Below, in pieces: positions 7,585 to 34,746 of a stretch of 35,073 nucleotides of DNA. This stretch comes from Eisenbergiella porci (GTDB lineage Bacteria; Bacillota; Clostridia; Lachnospirales; Lachnospiraceae): assembly GCF_009696275.1 (NCBI RefSeq), contig NZ_VUMI01000059.1, positions 1 to 35,073 of the forward strand, written 5' to 3'. Made by a program: the position numbers and the translations under genes. Below the pieces are notes generated by a model. It saw nothing but the letters and a program-made list of their open reading frames with translations, was not told the origin of the DNA and made no database searches. The first letter of the stretch is position 1, and every line of letters begins with the position of its first letter.

Positions 7585-7679
7585 AAGGGGTAGTGCATGT
7601 CCGGCTTTTGCCGTAAAGGGCAGAGAAATGGGCCGTGACGGGTTATTTTAGCGGACAAAACGATTGGAGCAAATACAAA

Positions 7680-10247
7680 ATGAATGTAATTCAAAAAGTT
7701 TTCGGCACGCACAGCGACAGGGAATTGAAGCGCGTTATCCCCATTGTGGACAAGATCGAGTCTTTAAGGCCCGCGATGATGGAGCTTTCCGATGAACAGC
7801 TGAAGGATAAGACGAAGGAATTCAGGAAGCGTCTCTCCGAAGGGGAAACACTGGATGACCTGCTTCCGGAGGCTTATGCCACGGTGCGTGAGGCTGCCAG
7901 AAGAGTCCTGAACATGGAGCCCTTCCGCGTACAGCTGATGGGCGGTATCATCCTGCATCAGGGACGAATCGCTGAAATGAAAACCGGTGAAGGTAAGACC
8001 ATGGTTTCCACGCTTCCGGCGTATCTGAATGCCCTGGAAGGAAAGGGTGTCCATGTGGTTACGGTCAACGATTACCTGGCTGCCAGGGACTCCGCCTGGA
8101 TGGGCGCGGTTCATGAATTTCTGGGCCTGGAGGTAGGCGTGGTATTAAACAGCATGAAGCCGGAGGAAAGACGCGCCGCTTATGCCAAGGATATTACCTA
8201 TGTGACCAATAATGAATTGGGCTTTGACTACCTGAGAGACAACATGGTCATTTATAAGGAACAGCTGGTGCTGCGTGACCTGCATTATGCCATCATCGAT
8301 GAGGTGGACTCCATTTTAATCGATGAGGCCAGAACCCCTCTGATCATTTCCGGCCAGAGCGGGAAATCCACCAAGCTGTACGAAGCCTGCGATATCCTGG
8401 CAAAACAGATGGAGCGCGGCGCGGACATGGAGGATCTGTCCAAGTTGGACGCCATCATGGGCGTGGAACAGGAGGAATCGGGAGACTTCGTTGTCAATGA
8501 AAAGGATAAAGTGGTCAACCTGACGGAGCAGGGCGTTGCCAAAGTGGAAAGATTTTTTCAGATTGAGAACCTTGCGGATCCGGAGAATCTGGAAATCCAG
8601 CATAATATCATCCTGGCCCTGCGTGCAAATAACCTTATGTTCCGCGATAAGGACTATGTGGTAAAGGACGACCAGGTTCTGATTGTCGATGAATTTACCG
8701 GACGTATCATGCCGGGCCGCCGTTATTCCGACGGACTCCATCAGGCGATTGAAGCGAAGGAGCACGTACAGGTCAAGAGAGAAAGCAAGACGCTGGCGAC
8801 CATTACCTTCCAGAACTTCTTTAATAAATTTGAGAAAAAAGCAGGTATGACAGGTACCGCACTCACTGAGGAAAAGGAATTCCGCGATATTTACGGCATG
8901 GACGTTATCGAGATTCCCACCAACAGGCCGATTCAGAGAATTGACCATCAGGATGCGGTTTACAAGACCAGAAAAGAAAAGCTGCATGCGATTGTGGAGG
9001 CTGTGGAGGAGTCCCATGCCAAGGGACAGCCTGTCCTGGTTGGTACGATTACCATTGAGGCTTCCGAGGAGCTGAGCGGCCTTCTGAAGAGAAAAGGAAT
9101 CCCGCATAAGGTGCTGAATGCCAAGTTCCATGAGCTGGAAGCGGAAATCGTTGCGGATGCAGGTATTCATGGCGCCGTTACCATCGCCACCAATATGGCC
9201 GGACGTGGTACGGATATTAAGCTGGATGATAATGCCAAGGCGGCGGGCGGTTTGAAGATTATCGGTACGGAGCGGCATGAGTCCAGGCGTATTGATAATC
9301 AGCTGCGCGGCCGTTCCGGACGACAGGGAGATCCCGGTGAATCCAAGTTCTACATTTCGCTGGAAGATGATTTGATGAGGCTGTTCGGATCCGAGCGTCT
9401 GATCAATATGTTCAACACCATGGGTGTTCCGGAAAATCAGGAAATTGAGCACAAGATGCTCAGCAACGCCATTGAAACGGCGCAGAAGAAAATAGAGAGC
9501 AATAACTTCGGTATCAGAAAGAACCTGCTGGAATACGATCAGGTCATGAACGAGCAGCGTGAGATTATTTACGCGGAAAGACGCCGTGTCCTGGACGGGG
9601 AAAGCATGCGCGATGTTATTTACAAAATGATTACGGATATTGTGGATAATACCGTGGACATGGTAATCGGTGAAGACGCGGATGTGGAGGATTGGAATTT
9701 CAAGGAGCTCAATTCCCTGCTTCTGCCAATTATTCCGCTGGTTCCTGTTACAAAAGAGCGGGTGAACAAGCCAAAGAGAAACAGCCTGAAGCAGCAGCTG
9801 AAGGAAGAGGCTGTGAAGCTGTATGAGAGCAAGGAGGCGGAATTCCCGGAGCCGGAAGCTATCCGTGAACTGGAGCGGGTGATTCTGCTGAAGGTGATTG
9901 ATAATAAGTGGATGGCTCATATCGATGATATGGATCAGCTGCGTCAGGGAATTGGTTTGCAGGCTTATGCCCAGAGGGATCCTCTGGTTGAGTATAAGAT
10001 GAGCGGTTATGAGATGTTTGACAGCATGACCGACAGTATCAGGGAGGATACCATCCGGCTGCTCTTCCACGTGAGAGTGGAGCAGAAGGTGGAAAGGGAG
10101 CAGGTTGCCAAGGTGACCGGCACCAATAAGGATGATTCCGGCCCGAAGGCTCCGATGAAACGGAGCGAGAAGAAGGTATATCCGAATGATCCCTGTCCTT
10201 GCGGCAGTGGGAAGAAGTATAAGAACTGCTGTGGGAAGAACAAGTAA
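7680..10247 (+). CDS. secA: Preprotein translocase ATPase SecA
   Basis: SecA drives export of unfolded proteins through SecYEG. From ATG 7680 the protein is 855 aa, close to the usual length. I chose this start because it gives the typical N-terminus ([18 protein letters not shown]) and has GGAG 10 bases upstream; a GTG at 7635 would add 15 residues without a good site. Visible motifs are KTGEGKTM (Walker A), [21 protein letters not shown] (DEAD-like box), [36 protein letters not shown], and the C-terminal zinc motif [15 protein letters not shown]. All core parts are intact. It is followed by a structured intergenic element and prfB, a common secA-prfB order in Firmicutes. Confidence 0.97.
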
Positions 10248-10340
10248 GGGATGGTTTTGGGATAAGGAATTAGAGGGGGATGGAGGATTCGGAAGGGATT
10301 CCGGACCTCCGCGTTTAAAGGAATGGTAACCCGGTAATCC

Positions 10341-10496
10341 GCCGGGCAGGCTCAAGGGCCTTCGGCCCTTTCGCTTTGCGGCTGTCGCCGCATGCCGGAG
10401 AGGAAACAGAAAGCTTTCGGGAAGCAGGCGTCCGGGCATAGGGCGGCCCGGGCATCTGTTTCCCGGAAGCTTTCTGTTTCCTCTTCAGCGCCCGGC
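10341..10496 (+). repeat. Large structured intergenic element: branched RNA fold or MITE/REP-like repeat
   Basis: A closing stem GCCGGGC/GCCCGGC (10341-10347 with 10490-10496) encloses three hairpins. They are AAGGGCC-TTC-GGCCCTT (10354-10370), GCGGC-TGTC-GCCGC (10378-10391), and a very long one with 39-nt arms (10399-10437 with 10446-10484) and an 8-nt loop. The long arms are identical at 34 of 39 positions as inverted repeats. Four of the five differences become G-U pairs if the plus strand is transcribed, leaving one C-A mismatch. It has no open reading frame of note and no T-tract. It could be a structured RNA, a processing or stabilising element between secA and prfB, or a small non-autonomous mobile repeat. 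Confidence 0.75.
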
Positions 10497-10530
10497 TCGT
10501 AGATAGTAAAAGTAAAGGTGGTGATCGTTA

Positions 10531-11656
10531 GTGGTTTTGTTGGATCAGATGAAACAGGAATTACAGGCTTATAAAACTCCATTGGCGGAAGTGAGGGATT
10601 CACTTTAACTTAGCTGAAAAGTCTAAGCGAATCGAAGAATTGGAGCGCGAGATGGAGGCTCCGGGATTTTGGGATAATCCTGAATATTCCAATAAGAAAA
10701 TGAAAGAACTTAAGAATCTGAAGGATACCGTGGAGCAGATTGAGAATCTGTTCACCCAGTATGACGATATCGAGACGCTCATTGAAATGGGAAATGAGGA
10801 AAACGATGAGTCTATGGCGGAGGAAATCCGTTTCGAGTTGGATTCCTTCACGGAAGAACTGGAAACGCTGCGCATCAGCACGCTTCTTACCGGCGAGTAT
10901 GATAAGAACGGCGCCATACTGAAGCTTAATGCAGGCGCAGGCGGTACCGAAAGCTGCGACTGGTGCAGCATGCTTTACAGAATGTATACCAGATGGGCGG
11001 AACGAAAAGGCTTTACTGTGGAAGTCCTGGATTTCCTGGACGGCGACGAAGCCGGCATTAAATCCGTTACCTTCCAGGTAAACGGAGAAAACGCATACGG
11101 CTATCTGAAATCAGAAAAAGGAGTGCACCGTCTGGTGCGGATCTCCCCATTCAACGCACAGGGCAAACGCCAGACTTCCTTTGTATCCCTGGATGTCATG
11201 CCCGATATTGAAGAAGACCTGGATATCGAAATCAATGAGGAAGACCTCAGAATCGATACCTACCGAAGCAGCGGCGCAGGCGGCCAGCATATTAACAAGA
11301 CCTCCTCAGCCATCCGCATCACCCATCTTCCCACCGGAATTGTGGTACAGTGCCAGAACGAGCGCTCCCAGTTCCAGAACAAAGATAAGGCCATGCAGAT
11401 GCTGAAAGCCAAGCTGTATATGCTCAGACAGGAAGAAAACGCCCAGAAGCTTTCCGGAATCCGCGGTGAAGTCAAAGAAATCGGCTGGGGCAATCAAATC
11501 CGCTCCTACGTTTTCCAGCCCTACACCATGGTCAAAGACCACAGAACCAACCACGAAACCGGAAACGTAGACGCCGTTATGGACGGAGCATTAGACTCCT
11601 TCATCAACGCCTATCTTAAATGGATAAGCACCGGCAAAGCCGATGGCGAAGAATAA
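10531..11656 (+). CDS. prfB: Peptide chain release factor 2, with +1 programmed frameshift at a UAA codon
   Basis: RF2 releases finished proteins at UGA and UAA. The gene is split into two frames: 10531-10605 (25 codons from GTG), then a skip of T10606, then 10607-11656. The joined product is about 374 aa, normal for RF2. The zero frame reads AGG-GAT-TCA-CTT-TAA, so CTT slides +1 to read AAC. An internal Shine-Dalgarno (AGGGA, 10594-10598) lies at the same distance as in the classic site. The usual site is CTT-TGA; here the stop is TAA. Other RF2 marks are SPF (VRISPFNAQG), the recognition tripeptide, and GGQ (GAGGQHINKT), the catalytic motif. The GTG start follows AAAGGTGGTGA. It lies downstream of secA and the structured element and ends at a strong terminator. 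Confidence 0.93.
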
Positions 11657-11830: not shown

Positions 11831-12106
11831 ATGTTAGCTAAAACATTTGTGGATAATGCCAAAATAATGGCAAAAGGACAGGTTACAATTCCGAAAGATA
11901 TTCGGGAGGTACTTGGTGTGTCAAGCGGTGATCGCATTAGCTTCATTGTAGAAGGTAACACCGTCCGCATTGTTAATTCTGCTGTTTATGCCATGCAGAT
12001 GCTTCAGAGAGAAATGGCTGGAGAGGCTGATCGTACAGGATTGAATTCAGATGAAGATGTGTTGGCACTTGTAAAAGAACTGCGAAATGAGGATGAAAAA
12101 GTATGA
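11831..12106 (+). CDS. SpoVT-AbrB-fold antitoxin (VapB/MazE-like)
   Basis: A 91-aa protein with a swapped-hairpin AbrB DNA-binding domain at about residues 9-52 (AKIMAKGQVTIPKDIREVLG, then GDRISFIVEGNTVRIVN), followed by a helical acidic C-terminus that would bind and neutralise a toxin. AGGAGGT lies just upstream of the ATG. Its TGA overlaps the start of the PIN gene as ATGA, the standard antitoxin-toxin coupling. The local base composition is more AT-rich than the flanking genes, suggesting separate acquisition. The antitoxin is intact while the toxin is truncated. Confidence 0.88.
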   Translation: MLAKTFVDNAKIMAKGQVTIPKDIREVLGVSSGDRISFIVEGNTVRIVNSAVYAMQMLQREMAGEADRTGLNSDEDVLALVKELRNEDEKV

Positions 12107-22932: not shown

Positions 22933-22960
22933 AATAGAGTAACAATTTAATAAAGGTAAA

Positions 22961-23107
22961 GTTCTTCAGGGTTGGGTGTAATTCCCTACCGGCGGTGACG
23001 CTGCAGTTGATCCACTACAGGTGCAGACAAGTCCGCGACCCGCGTCATGCGGCTGATCCGGTACGAATCCGGAACCGACAGTAAAGTCTGGATGAAAGAA
23101 GAAAATC
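22961..23107 (+). ncRNA. FMN riboswitch (RFN element)
   Basis: The hallmark segments are in order: AGGGTTGGGTGTAATTCCC, CTACCGGCGGTGA, ACAAGTCCGCGACCCGCG, GATCCGGTACGAATCCGGA and ACCGACAGTAAAGTCTGGAT. It binds flavin mononucleotide and, with the terminator at 23179-23208, should switch off ribU when FMN is plentiful. Confidence 0.96.
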
Positions 23108-23178
23108 ATGCATGGATACCTGTTTTTACGCCGTTTGGTTTACAGAGGCAGCAGGTGTTTTCCAGGGATTGGATATCT

Positions 23179-23208
23179 GCCCGGAGAATCATTTCTCCGG
23201 GCTTTTTT
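23179..23208 (+). terminator. Riboswitch expression-platform terminator
   Basis: GCCCGGAGAA (23179-23188) and TTCTCCGGGC (23193-23202) are perfect 10-bp arms with loop TCAT and six T. It lies between the aptamer and ribU, as needed for transcription control. Confidence 0.92.
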
Positions 23209-23299
23209 GATACCTTCCTTTCATGAAGCATCAGAAGAATTTTCCTTGTCTTACGCAATAACTCCGGCTGGCCGGAGAAAGAAAAGGAGAGTATACATA

Positions 23300-24025
23300 A
23301 TGAATGATTTAGCAGCGTCCTTCGCGGAAAACCTTATTTTTGTCCTGGAGTTTCTGGGGCTTGTGGCCGCCATGGTAATCATCGCCTACGTGGTGGAAAA
23401 ATGGGAACGAAAGAAAAACGGAAACAGGGAACGTACCCTCACCACCAGAAAAATAGCCATGATAGGCGTATTTTCGGCGATAGCGGTCATCCTGCACATG
23501 CTGGATTTCCCCATCCCCTTTGCCCCGGAATTCTATAAAATGGATTTCAGCGAGCTTCCTGCCCTGATCGGCGCATTTGCCTTTGGCCCGGTGGCGGCGG
23601 TCATGATTGAGTTCTGCAAAATTATCCTGAAGCTTCTGTTTAAAGGAACCTCCACCGCATTTGTAGGAGATCTGGCCAATTTTATCATTGGCTGCAGCTT
23701 CCTGCTTCCTGCCTCTATCATATACCTGTTCCGCAAGAACAAGAAAAATGCCATAATCGGCTGTGTTGTGGGAACACTTGTAATGACGGTTTTCGGAACT
23801 GCCTTCAACGCGGTGTACCTGCTCCCCAAATTTGCAGAGCTGTACGGAATGCCGTTAGATTCCATTGTCGGCCTGGGCCACGCCATCAATCCCTCCATCA
23901 ACAGCGTGACTACGCTTGCATTATTTGCCGTAGCGCCCATGAACCTGATGAAAGGCGGCATCGTTTCCATAGTAACCATGCTGATTTATAAAAAACTCAG
24001 CCCCATCCTGCACAGCAAAAAATAA
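23300..24025 (+). CDS. ribU: ECF transporter substrate-binding component RibU (riboflavin)
   Basis: A 241-aa membrane protein with about six helices. An N-terminal extra helix (about 8-32) comes before the S-component core (TTRKIAMIGVFSAIAVILHM; FYKMDFSELPALIGAFAFGP; LKLLFKGTSTAFVGDLANFI). The DFSELP and KGTSTAFVGDLAN patterns are typical of RibU. It captures riboflavin and works with a shared EcfT-EcfA module encoded elsewhere. I chose ATG 23300, after AAAAGGAGAG; a longer frame from 23108 runs back through the terminator. The FMN riboswitch in its leader supports riboflavin as the ligand. Confidence 0.94.
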   Translation: MNDLAASFAENLIFVLEFLGLVAAMVIIAYVVEKWERKKNGNRERTLTTRKIAMIGVFSAIAVILHMLDFPIPFAPEFYKMDFSELPALIGAFAFGPVAAVMIEFCKIILKLLFKGTSTAFVGDLANFIIGCSFLLPASIIYLFRKNKKNAIIGCVVGTLVMTVFGTAFNAVYLLPKFAELYGMPLDSIVGLGHAINPSINSVTTLALFAVAPMNLMKGGIVSIVTMLIYKKLSPILHSKK

Positions 24026-34484: not shown

Positions 34485-34570
34485 GGAGAGGTATCGAAGT
34501 GGTCATAACGAGGCGGTCTTGAAAACCGTTTGTCCGCAAGGGCGCGTGGGTTCGAATCCCACCCTCTCCG
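34485..34570 (+). tRNA. tRNA-Ser (anticodon TGA)
   Basis: The 86-nt gene has a 7-bp acceptor stem (GGAGAGG with CCTCTCC), anticodon loop CTTGAAA with TGA at 34520-34522, a long variable arm (TTTGTCCGCAAGGGCGCG region) and the T-loop TTCGAAT. CCA is not encoded after the discriminator G. Confidence 0.96.
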
Positions 34571-34657: not shown

Positions 34658-34746
34658 GGAGAAGTACCCAAGAGGCCGAAGGGACACCCCTGGAAAGGGT
34701 GCAGGTCGTTAATAGCGGCGCGAGGGTTCAAATCCCTCCTTCTCCG
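34658..34746 (+). tRNA. tRNA-Ser (anticodon GGA)
   Basis: The 89-nt gene has acceptor GGAGAAG with CTTCTCC, anticodon stem CACCC/GGGTG, loop CTGGAAA with GGA at 34692-34694, a long variable arm and the T-loop TTCAAAT. CCA is not encoded. Confidence 0.96.

Follow-up and report, generated by a model that had tools for sequence, protein, structure and literature searches.

We propose, with a probability of about two in three, that the branched element located between secA and prfB in the window (i.e., the whole stretch of 35,073 nucleotides analyzed) belongs to a family of small interspersed repeats that are non-autonomous, selected as a four-armed fold of the minus strand and probably active as RNA at the boundaries of mRNAs.

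On the minus strand, the whole repeat (10339-10502) extends 5' to 3' from CTAC (10502-10499) to the end of the closing stem P1, and cmsearch with the family models matched positions 10333-10502. The order of elements on the selected strand is 5'-NNNNGAGCC(P1)-P4-P3-P2-(P1)-3'. As found in the folds of both strands, the two halves of P1 on the minus strand are at 10490-10496 (5' strand; GCCCGGC on plus) and 10341-10347 (3' strand; GCCGGGC on plus). P4 (10394-10489, minus) is the long hairpin whose sequence differs among copies, and its plus-strand fold contains 42 pairs, including five G.U pairs, together with two A.C mismatches (10396/10487 and 10429/10454). P3 (10377-10392, minus) is a short hairpin that reads TGCGGC-TGTC-GCCGCA on plus and has the loop GACA on minus, while P2 (10348-10376, minus), recognized from the sequence and the folds of both strands, possesses an internal loop that is GA/GA on minus, a possible tandem G.A, and UC/UC on plus. 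The 5' leader CTAC (10499-10502, minus), which is followed by GAGCC, was delimited by an alignment of 137 copies, where the tetranucleotide is elsewhere CAAT, CTAT, CTAA, TGAT or others. The plus strand of 10341-10496 is predicted to fold at -120 kcal/mol, compared with -67.6 +/- 4.5 kcal/mol for 200 shuffles (z -11.6), and the minus strand forms the same arms at -107 kcal/mol (z -10.8); for 10339-10502, the respective values are -121.4 and -108.4 kcal/mol. The closing stem with two short hairpins and one long hairpin that the original prediction described is hence seen in the folds. It is not a product of chance, as other copies combine the same architecture with unrelated arm sequences.

When 98 genomes were searched by DNA, the secA-prfB copy was present in full in G000 and G001 alone, and fragments of it were matched at many further sites of the genus; the genus copies that were read share one architecture (P1, P2, P3 and P4) with unrelated arm sequences. 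A covariance model built from 24 copies (R1) matched in 31 of the 98 genomes, while a model built from 115 matches (R2), run on 299 genomes from the taxonomic family of the host, found at least one match in 185. The source search for R2 scanned 100 of 145 loci, which yielded the 115 matches; the omitted loci are duplicates, loci with secA or prfB only, and L019, L028, L047 and L127, where copies are present or possible. Later lists use 102 of the 115 matches, with 13 cut or tandem part-units dropped. The copy numbers in the 299-genome search are lower bounds, since 11 candidates were scored per genome; with fuller scoring (E<=1e-3), six genomes picked from those with matches contained 14 (the window genome), 6, 19, 15, 7 and 8. 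Most matches are 130-175 bp long. In a class-wide sample, 17 of 291 genomes matched, including 8 from the host's family, and we infer that the family of Clostridia carrying the repeat is the Lachnospiraceae. These six genomes harbor several dispersed, non-orthologous copies each, whose flanking genes differ, and the small dispersed repeat, which had been the second option of the original prediction, is upheld by these counts. Copy turnover seems to be slow; 19 matches each, several of which have equal scores, were found in two genomes of one genus, G345 and G629. Tandem P3-P2-P1' modules, often near-identical, are found beside P4 in L043, L019, L040, L179, L184, L196, L197 and L205, and whole units including P4 are repeated in L040. 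The tandem modules are possibly slippage arrays that offer alternative P1 partners.

Pairing is preserved throughout the family. In alignment A2 (114 distinct rows), which was fitted to the model and therefore leans towards pairing, 93.8% of the 3392 cells in the 32 modelled pairs are standard-paired, and 29 of the 32 pairs display two-sided changes. The cells changed on both sides number 1000, compared with 281 +/- 19 in shuffles that ignore relatedness, and none of the 500 shuffles was as high; sliding the partner by 1-3 columns, a control in which relatedness is kept, was also far lower, with at most 44.8% of cells paired and at most 299 double-changed. A MAFFT alignment of 24 copies gave two-sided changes in 21 of the 32 predicted pairs. 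P1 is 96.4% paired across the family, with two-sided changes in six of its seven modelled pairs, and two-sided changes are found in all eight modelled pairs of P2, in three of the five of P3 (97.5% of cells paired) and in all 12 modelled family pairs of P4, whose sequence changes freely while its pairing is kept. Covariation beyond the controls is what a functional RNA would show, and the covariance analysis called for by the original prediction thus agrees with its claim that selection acts on a single-strand fold instead of a mere DNA palindrome. Based on this covariation, the single-strand fold appears to be what is selected.

The mismatches of P4 and the loops of P4 and P3 bear on which strand is folded. 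P4 was scored as a palindrome with an equal penalty for each mismatch type and with one copy per sequence cluster; 192 of 194 copies entered the strand count (two part-units dropped) and 190 of 194 the loop count. In 105 clusters, the minus strand carries 93 G.T vs 51 A.C (binomial p 6e-4) and 130 G.A vs 6 C.T, and in all 192 copies it carries 187 vs 113 and 266 vs 7, respectively. Many of the G.A mismatches occupy one shared place near the tip; without the 11 tip-nearest pairs, the clusters have 71 G.T vs 25 A.C (p 3e-6) and 36 G.A vs 5 C.T on minus. By cluster, 43 lean to minus and 21 to plus. A smaller count of 59 clusters, with 39 G.T and 58 A.C on plus, has the same direction and is not strong alone. 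The P4 tip loop on minus is CTTG (CUUG) in 102 and CAAG in one of the 190 usable copies (48 and one of 103 cluster representatives), and the P3 loop on minus starts with G and ends with A in 151 of 190 copies and in 78 of 103 cluster representatives. Known RNA motifs include CUUG loops, GNRA-like loops and tandem G.A pairs. The covariance models derive from the plus strand and should, if anything, favor plus-strand G.U; copies within a genus are often orthologous, an effect that clustering by P4 sequence and neighbor protein reduces with no correction for the tree. The strand whose fold is selected is indicated to be the minus strand in the window by the types of mismatches and loops and by the position relative to promoters and stop codons. 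The mismatch pattern among dispersed copies is accordingly not symmetric, and its direction contradicts the selection on a plus-strand RNA that had been proposed: with 51 G.U vs 93 A.C on plus in the 105 clusters, the family counts speak against a plus-strand RNA.

Folded single-stranded DNA would also favor G.A, G.T and these loop types. The repeat could be a folded single-stranded DNA transposon of the IS200/IS605 or REP-like kind, where a HUH (Y1) transposase would cut the minus strand close to the 5' tetranucleotide and the strand would insert beside short words such as those at stops and promoters, a reading that we consider unlikely. It is consistent with one strand being favored. Stable DNA loops are of the types cGNNAg and gCNNGc, which would fit P3 and P4, but the preference for CTTG over CAAG (102 to 1) is not demanded by this rule.

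At the site itself, secA (7635-10247, plus; Pfam SecA domains) ends 93 nt before P1, and the main frame of prfB, encoding RF2 (Pfam PCRF and RF-1), is at 10640-11656 on plus, so the window copy is reversed relative to secA and prfB and antisense to both called neighbors. The original prediction held that four of the five departures from perfect repeats in the long stem become G-U pairs only on plus. A plus bias is indeed present in the window copy, where it is small, with 5 G.U vs 2 A.C instead of four of five departures; the G001 ortholog leans the same way (4 to 0), and the plus fold of the window copy is more stable by 13 kcal/mol. That a plus-strand RNA separates secA from prfB is nevertheless very improbable, as the family bias is opposite and the element is rarely at this site. 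The secA-prfB region is whole in G001 only among 12 other genomes of the genus, while nine (G002, G003, G004, G006, G007, G008, G010, G011 and G012) have secA and prfB-side matches between which the element is absent, five of these having been aligned (L007-L011). G005 and G009 have no prfB-side match among the matches listed by the DNA search, and the secA-prfB flanks are too diverged in the genus for a clean empty site. The search for copies in relatives thus returned many dispersed copies and a copy at the same site in G001, but none between the secA and prfB matches of nine genomes; with two members of the genus having the element at this site, a conserved role as separator is not borne out. 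No promoter-like site was found on either strand of 10200-10700, and the gap between secA and prfB contains no terminator site that convinces; the single terminator-like site in 10200-10700, where 0.5 are expected, corresponds to an internal segment of P4 on plus, and a simple terminator was rejected on this ground. A plasmid- or phage-borne repeat was also rejected, as neither the plasmid nor the phage collection contained a blastn match to the window copy at E 0.01. The window copy looks like a passenger in the other orientation; if secA and prfB share a transcript, its plus-strand fold would nonetheless give that transcript a long hairpin.

Other features of the window were also observed. 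In the prfB leader (10597-10614), CUU UAA C takes the place of CUU UGA C as the +1 frameshift site of RF2, with UAA at the 11 genus loci examined and UGA at the 10 loci examined in other genera. Because UAA is also terminated by RF1, as stated in PMC5009743, the autoregulation of prfB may differ with a UAA frameshift site. Directly 3' of prfB is a small ORF resembling a MazE-type antitoxin (11831-12106), and the window further contains an FMN riboswitch (22958-23107) upstream of the ORF at 23108-24025 and two tRNAs (34485-34570 and 34658-34746).

The neighbors of 138 copies were assigned by a home-made codon-bias gene call, which called at least one neighbor, in L204, otherwise than manual reading. 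Relative to the minus strand, the two neighbors are same/same in 59 copies, opposite/opposite in 24, same/opposite in 21 and opposite/same in 17, and for 17 copies at least one of the two neighbors was not called. Of the 138 copies, 56, representing 24 protein clusters, have their minus 5' end at -30 to +12 nt relative to a co-directional stop codon, and five have the far (minus 3') end at such a stop. Judged by inspection of their translations, the stop-abutting genes encode SpoIVB, EF-Tu, GroEL, ribosomal protein L20, V-ATPase B, rubrerythrin, SpoIVA, a glutamate-synthase-type reductase, a LacI regulator, an MBOAT protein and others. Certain sites are shared by different genera: after rubrerythrin in four, tuf in two, ntpB-ntpD in two and the spoIVB stop in five in all. 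A SpoIVB-like protein query matched in 64 of 100 genomes, and at the 30 loci examined the element is at the spoIVB stop in five (G000, G031, G058, G114 and G146), absent from it at 24 of the 29 testable ones and not judged at one more, which is at a contig edge; two spoIVB loci (L273 and L298) have copies elsewhere in the locus.

Of the 18 copies examined in G345, a complete genome, 13 begin shortly 3' of TATAAT, which precedes the minus 5' end by 17 nt in 12 copies and by 16 nt in one. By reading, TG is found one base before TATAAT in 10 of the 13, and most of the 16 printed G345 stretches have an RBS-like stretch and a start codon downstream, often reached via tandem P3-P2. For 137 copies, near-exact TATAAT peaks at offset -17 (16 copies, 12 of which are from G345) vs 1.65 per offset expected from shuffling, with smaller clusters at -15 (n=7) and -14 (n=5); without the G345 copies, TATAAT words are in small excess around the 5' end, partly owing to orthologs. 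A TAAG- or TAGG-like word (TARG) often precedes the 5' end by eye. Copies in L034, L003, L048 and L068 start, by reading, right after the T run of an apparent intrinsic terminator; some genus copies thus follow such a T run instead of a stop codon. In L139, L143 and L198, representing three genera, the copy is found by inspection beside a tyrosine recombinase-like gene of an integrative element, and repeated TACACCATTT-like words precede it.

It is quite unlikely that each copy is a domesticated cis-regulatory RNA, which controls the downstream gene as a minus-strand leader or closes the upstream gene as its 3' end. The G345 copies, situated between promoter-like sites and RBS, and the recurrent sites at rubrerythrin, ntpB-ntpD and spoIVB are consistent with such a role, but the neighboring genes have no evident common function and most testable spoIVB loci have no element at the stop. 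Moreover, a cis RNA role cannot hold for all copies, because 24 of 138 are antisense to both called neighbors.

Mobility is suggested by the crt-hbd gap, the only cleanly aligned site, where G009 was not judged. G000 and G012 have the element there, while the gap is empty (41-45 nt) in G003-G008 and has no recognizable copy in G010, G011 and G002 (61, 106 and 109 nt, respectively). A copy thus faces an empty site in relatives, as expected of an insertion, although the empty sites may represent loss instead of gain. In G001 (L227), P1 is kept and one short hairpin replaces P2, P3 and P4; elements may be remodelled by palindrome rearrangement. The flanks at crt-hbd are too diverged to show a target duplication, and the terminal repeat would be the 7-bp P1.

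With regard to the mover, the Y1 gene family is found in 175 and reverse transcriptase in 173 of the 299 genomes. G025 and G033, drafts of 94 and 92% completeness with eight element matches each, gave no match to PF01797 (Y1 transposase) or PF00078 (reverse transcriptase). They are counterexamples to either enzyme as a necessary resident partner, with a missed gene possible in drafts. For the single-stranded DNA transposon, whose target words could be the TARG seen before the 5' end, these two genomes count against it, and no copy flanking a transposase was seen in a search by PF01797 counts. A retron-like template with two short hairpins, one long hairpin and closing repeats, copied in trans by a reverse transcriptase, is scarcely credible. 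In retrons, the msr-msd order is short hairpins followed by a long hairpin, which the order on plus resembles; however, the selected strand has the reverse order, G025 and G033 again gave no match to the enzyme, and the five window proteins scanned near the element include no reverse transcriptase.

Under the preferred reading of a small interspersed repeat selected as a minus-strand fold, the minus strand would act as RNA in 5' leaders and at gene junctions, where the ends of transcripts might be protected or set by its closed and stable structure. With P1 closing it and CUUG as its cap, a fold placed at a transcript start or behind the last codon may resist exonucleases or be cut by RNase III, and the host would tolerate or use it at such boundaries. 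The minus-strand RNA would be expected to start 0-8 nt before CAATGAGCC/CTACGAGCC, and copies like that between secA and prfB would be reversed passengers. A bolder version, which we offer as a tentative conjecture, is that of a bacterial SINE-like family, in which the four-armed RNA is encoded by a mobile gene. This gene, with its own promoter in some lineages, would spread independently of resident Y1 transposases and reverse transcriptases, settle precisely at stop codons and transcription starts, be kept for genus-scale time and mark or protect mRNA ends, while its long arm drifts under pairing alone.

Given the depth of covariation and the spread over a large family, the repeat would clearly exemplify a mobile element whose single-strand fold is under selection. 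Its drifting, always-paired P4 offers numerous natural tests of the rules for strands, loops and mismatches, and its abutment to stops and promoter-like boxes makes the effect of a repeat on mRNA ends testable. It also illustrates how the strand of function can be misread from one hairpin, as the single window copy pointed to the wrong strand.

A known Rfam family is excluded by the lack of a gathering-score match over the window element, and none was found in 20 further copy-bearing loci either; a relaxed search gave sub-threshold hits only, mostly to microRNA families. In the open PubMed Central literature, we recognized no published repeat or RNA of this kind in these bacteria. The supplements of PMC8040213 contain 3161 unnamed candidate RNAs, which may include the repeat family, and the available portions of PMC5171806, where transcription starts were mapped in Clostridium phytofermentans, mention no such repeat. 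MITEs are described as having terminal inverted repeats and target duplications (PMC3049150). The repeat shares with MITE-like repeats (Correia, RUP and ERIC) that it is small, non-autonomous and folded, but its sole similarity to a terminal repeat is the 7-bp P1, and no target duplication was demonstrated. Membership in the retron ncRNAs is contradicted by the drafts G025 and G033, which gave no PF00078 match. REPs are often found at the 3' ends of genes. Like REP/BIME sequences with their GTAG or CGTC tags, the repeat is palindromic and extragenic, and the window copy ends with GTAG on plus. REPs are, however, 20-40 bp long (PMC3733652), whereas the repeat is mostly 130-175 bp long, has a variable tetranucleotide and is not always accompanied by a resident Y1 gene; its size and variable tetranucleotide place it outside the REPs. 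The nearest analogue would be BOX of Streptococcus pneumoniae (boxA-boxBn-boxC), which is described in PMC3049150 as small, folded and modular with a tandem middle, with several copies transcribed and novel insertions slow. Both are small, interspersed, folded and modular, the tandem P3-P2-P1' modules in several copies being the counterpart here, while the four-armed fold, the freely varying long arm, the abutment to stop codons and the different hosts distinguish the repeat from BOX, which was compared by description. With BOX as its nearest analogue and REPs differing in size and tag, the element is therefore regarded as a small interspersed repeat and is not assigned to the BOX (by description), REP, MITE or retron families.
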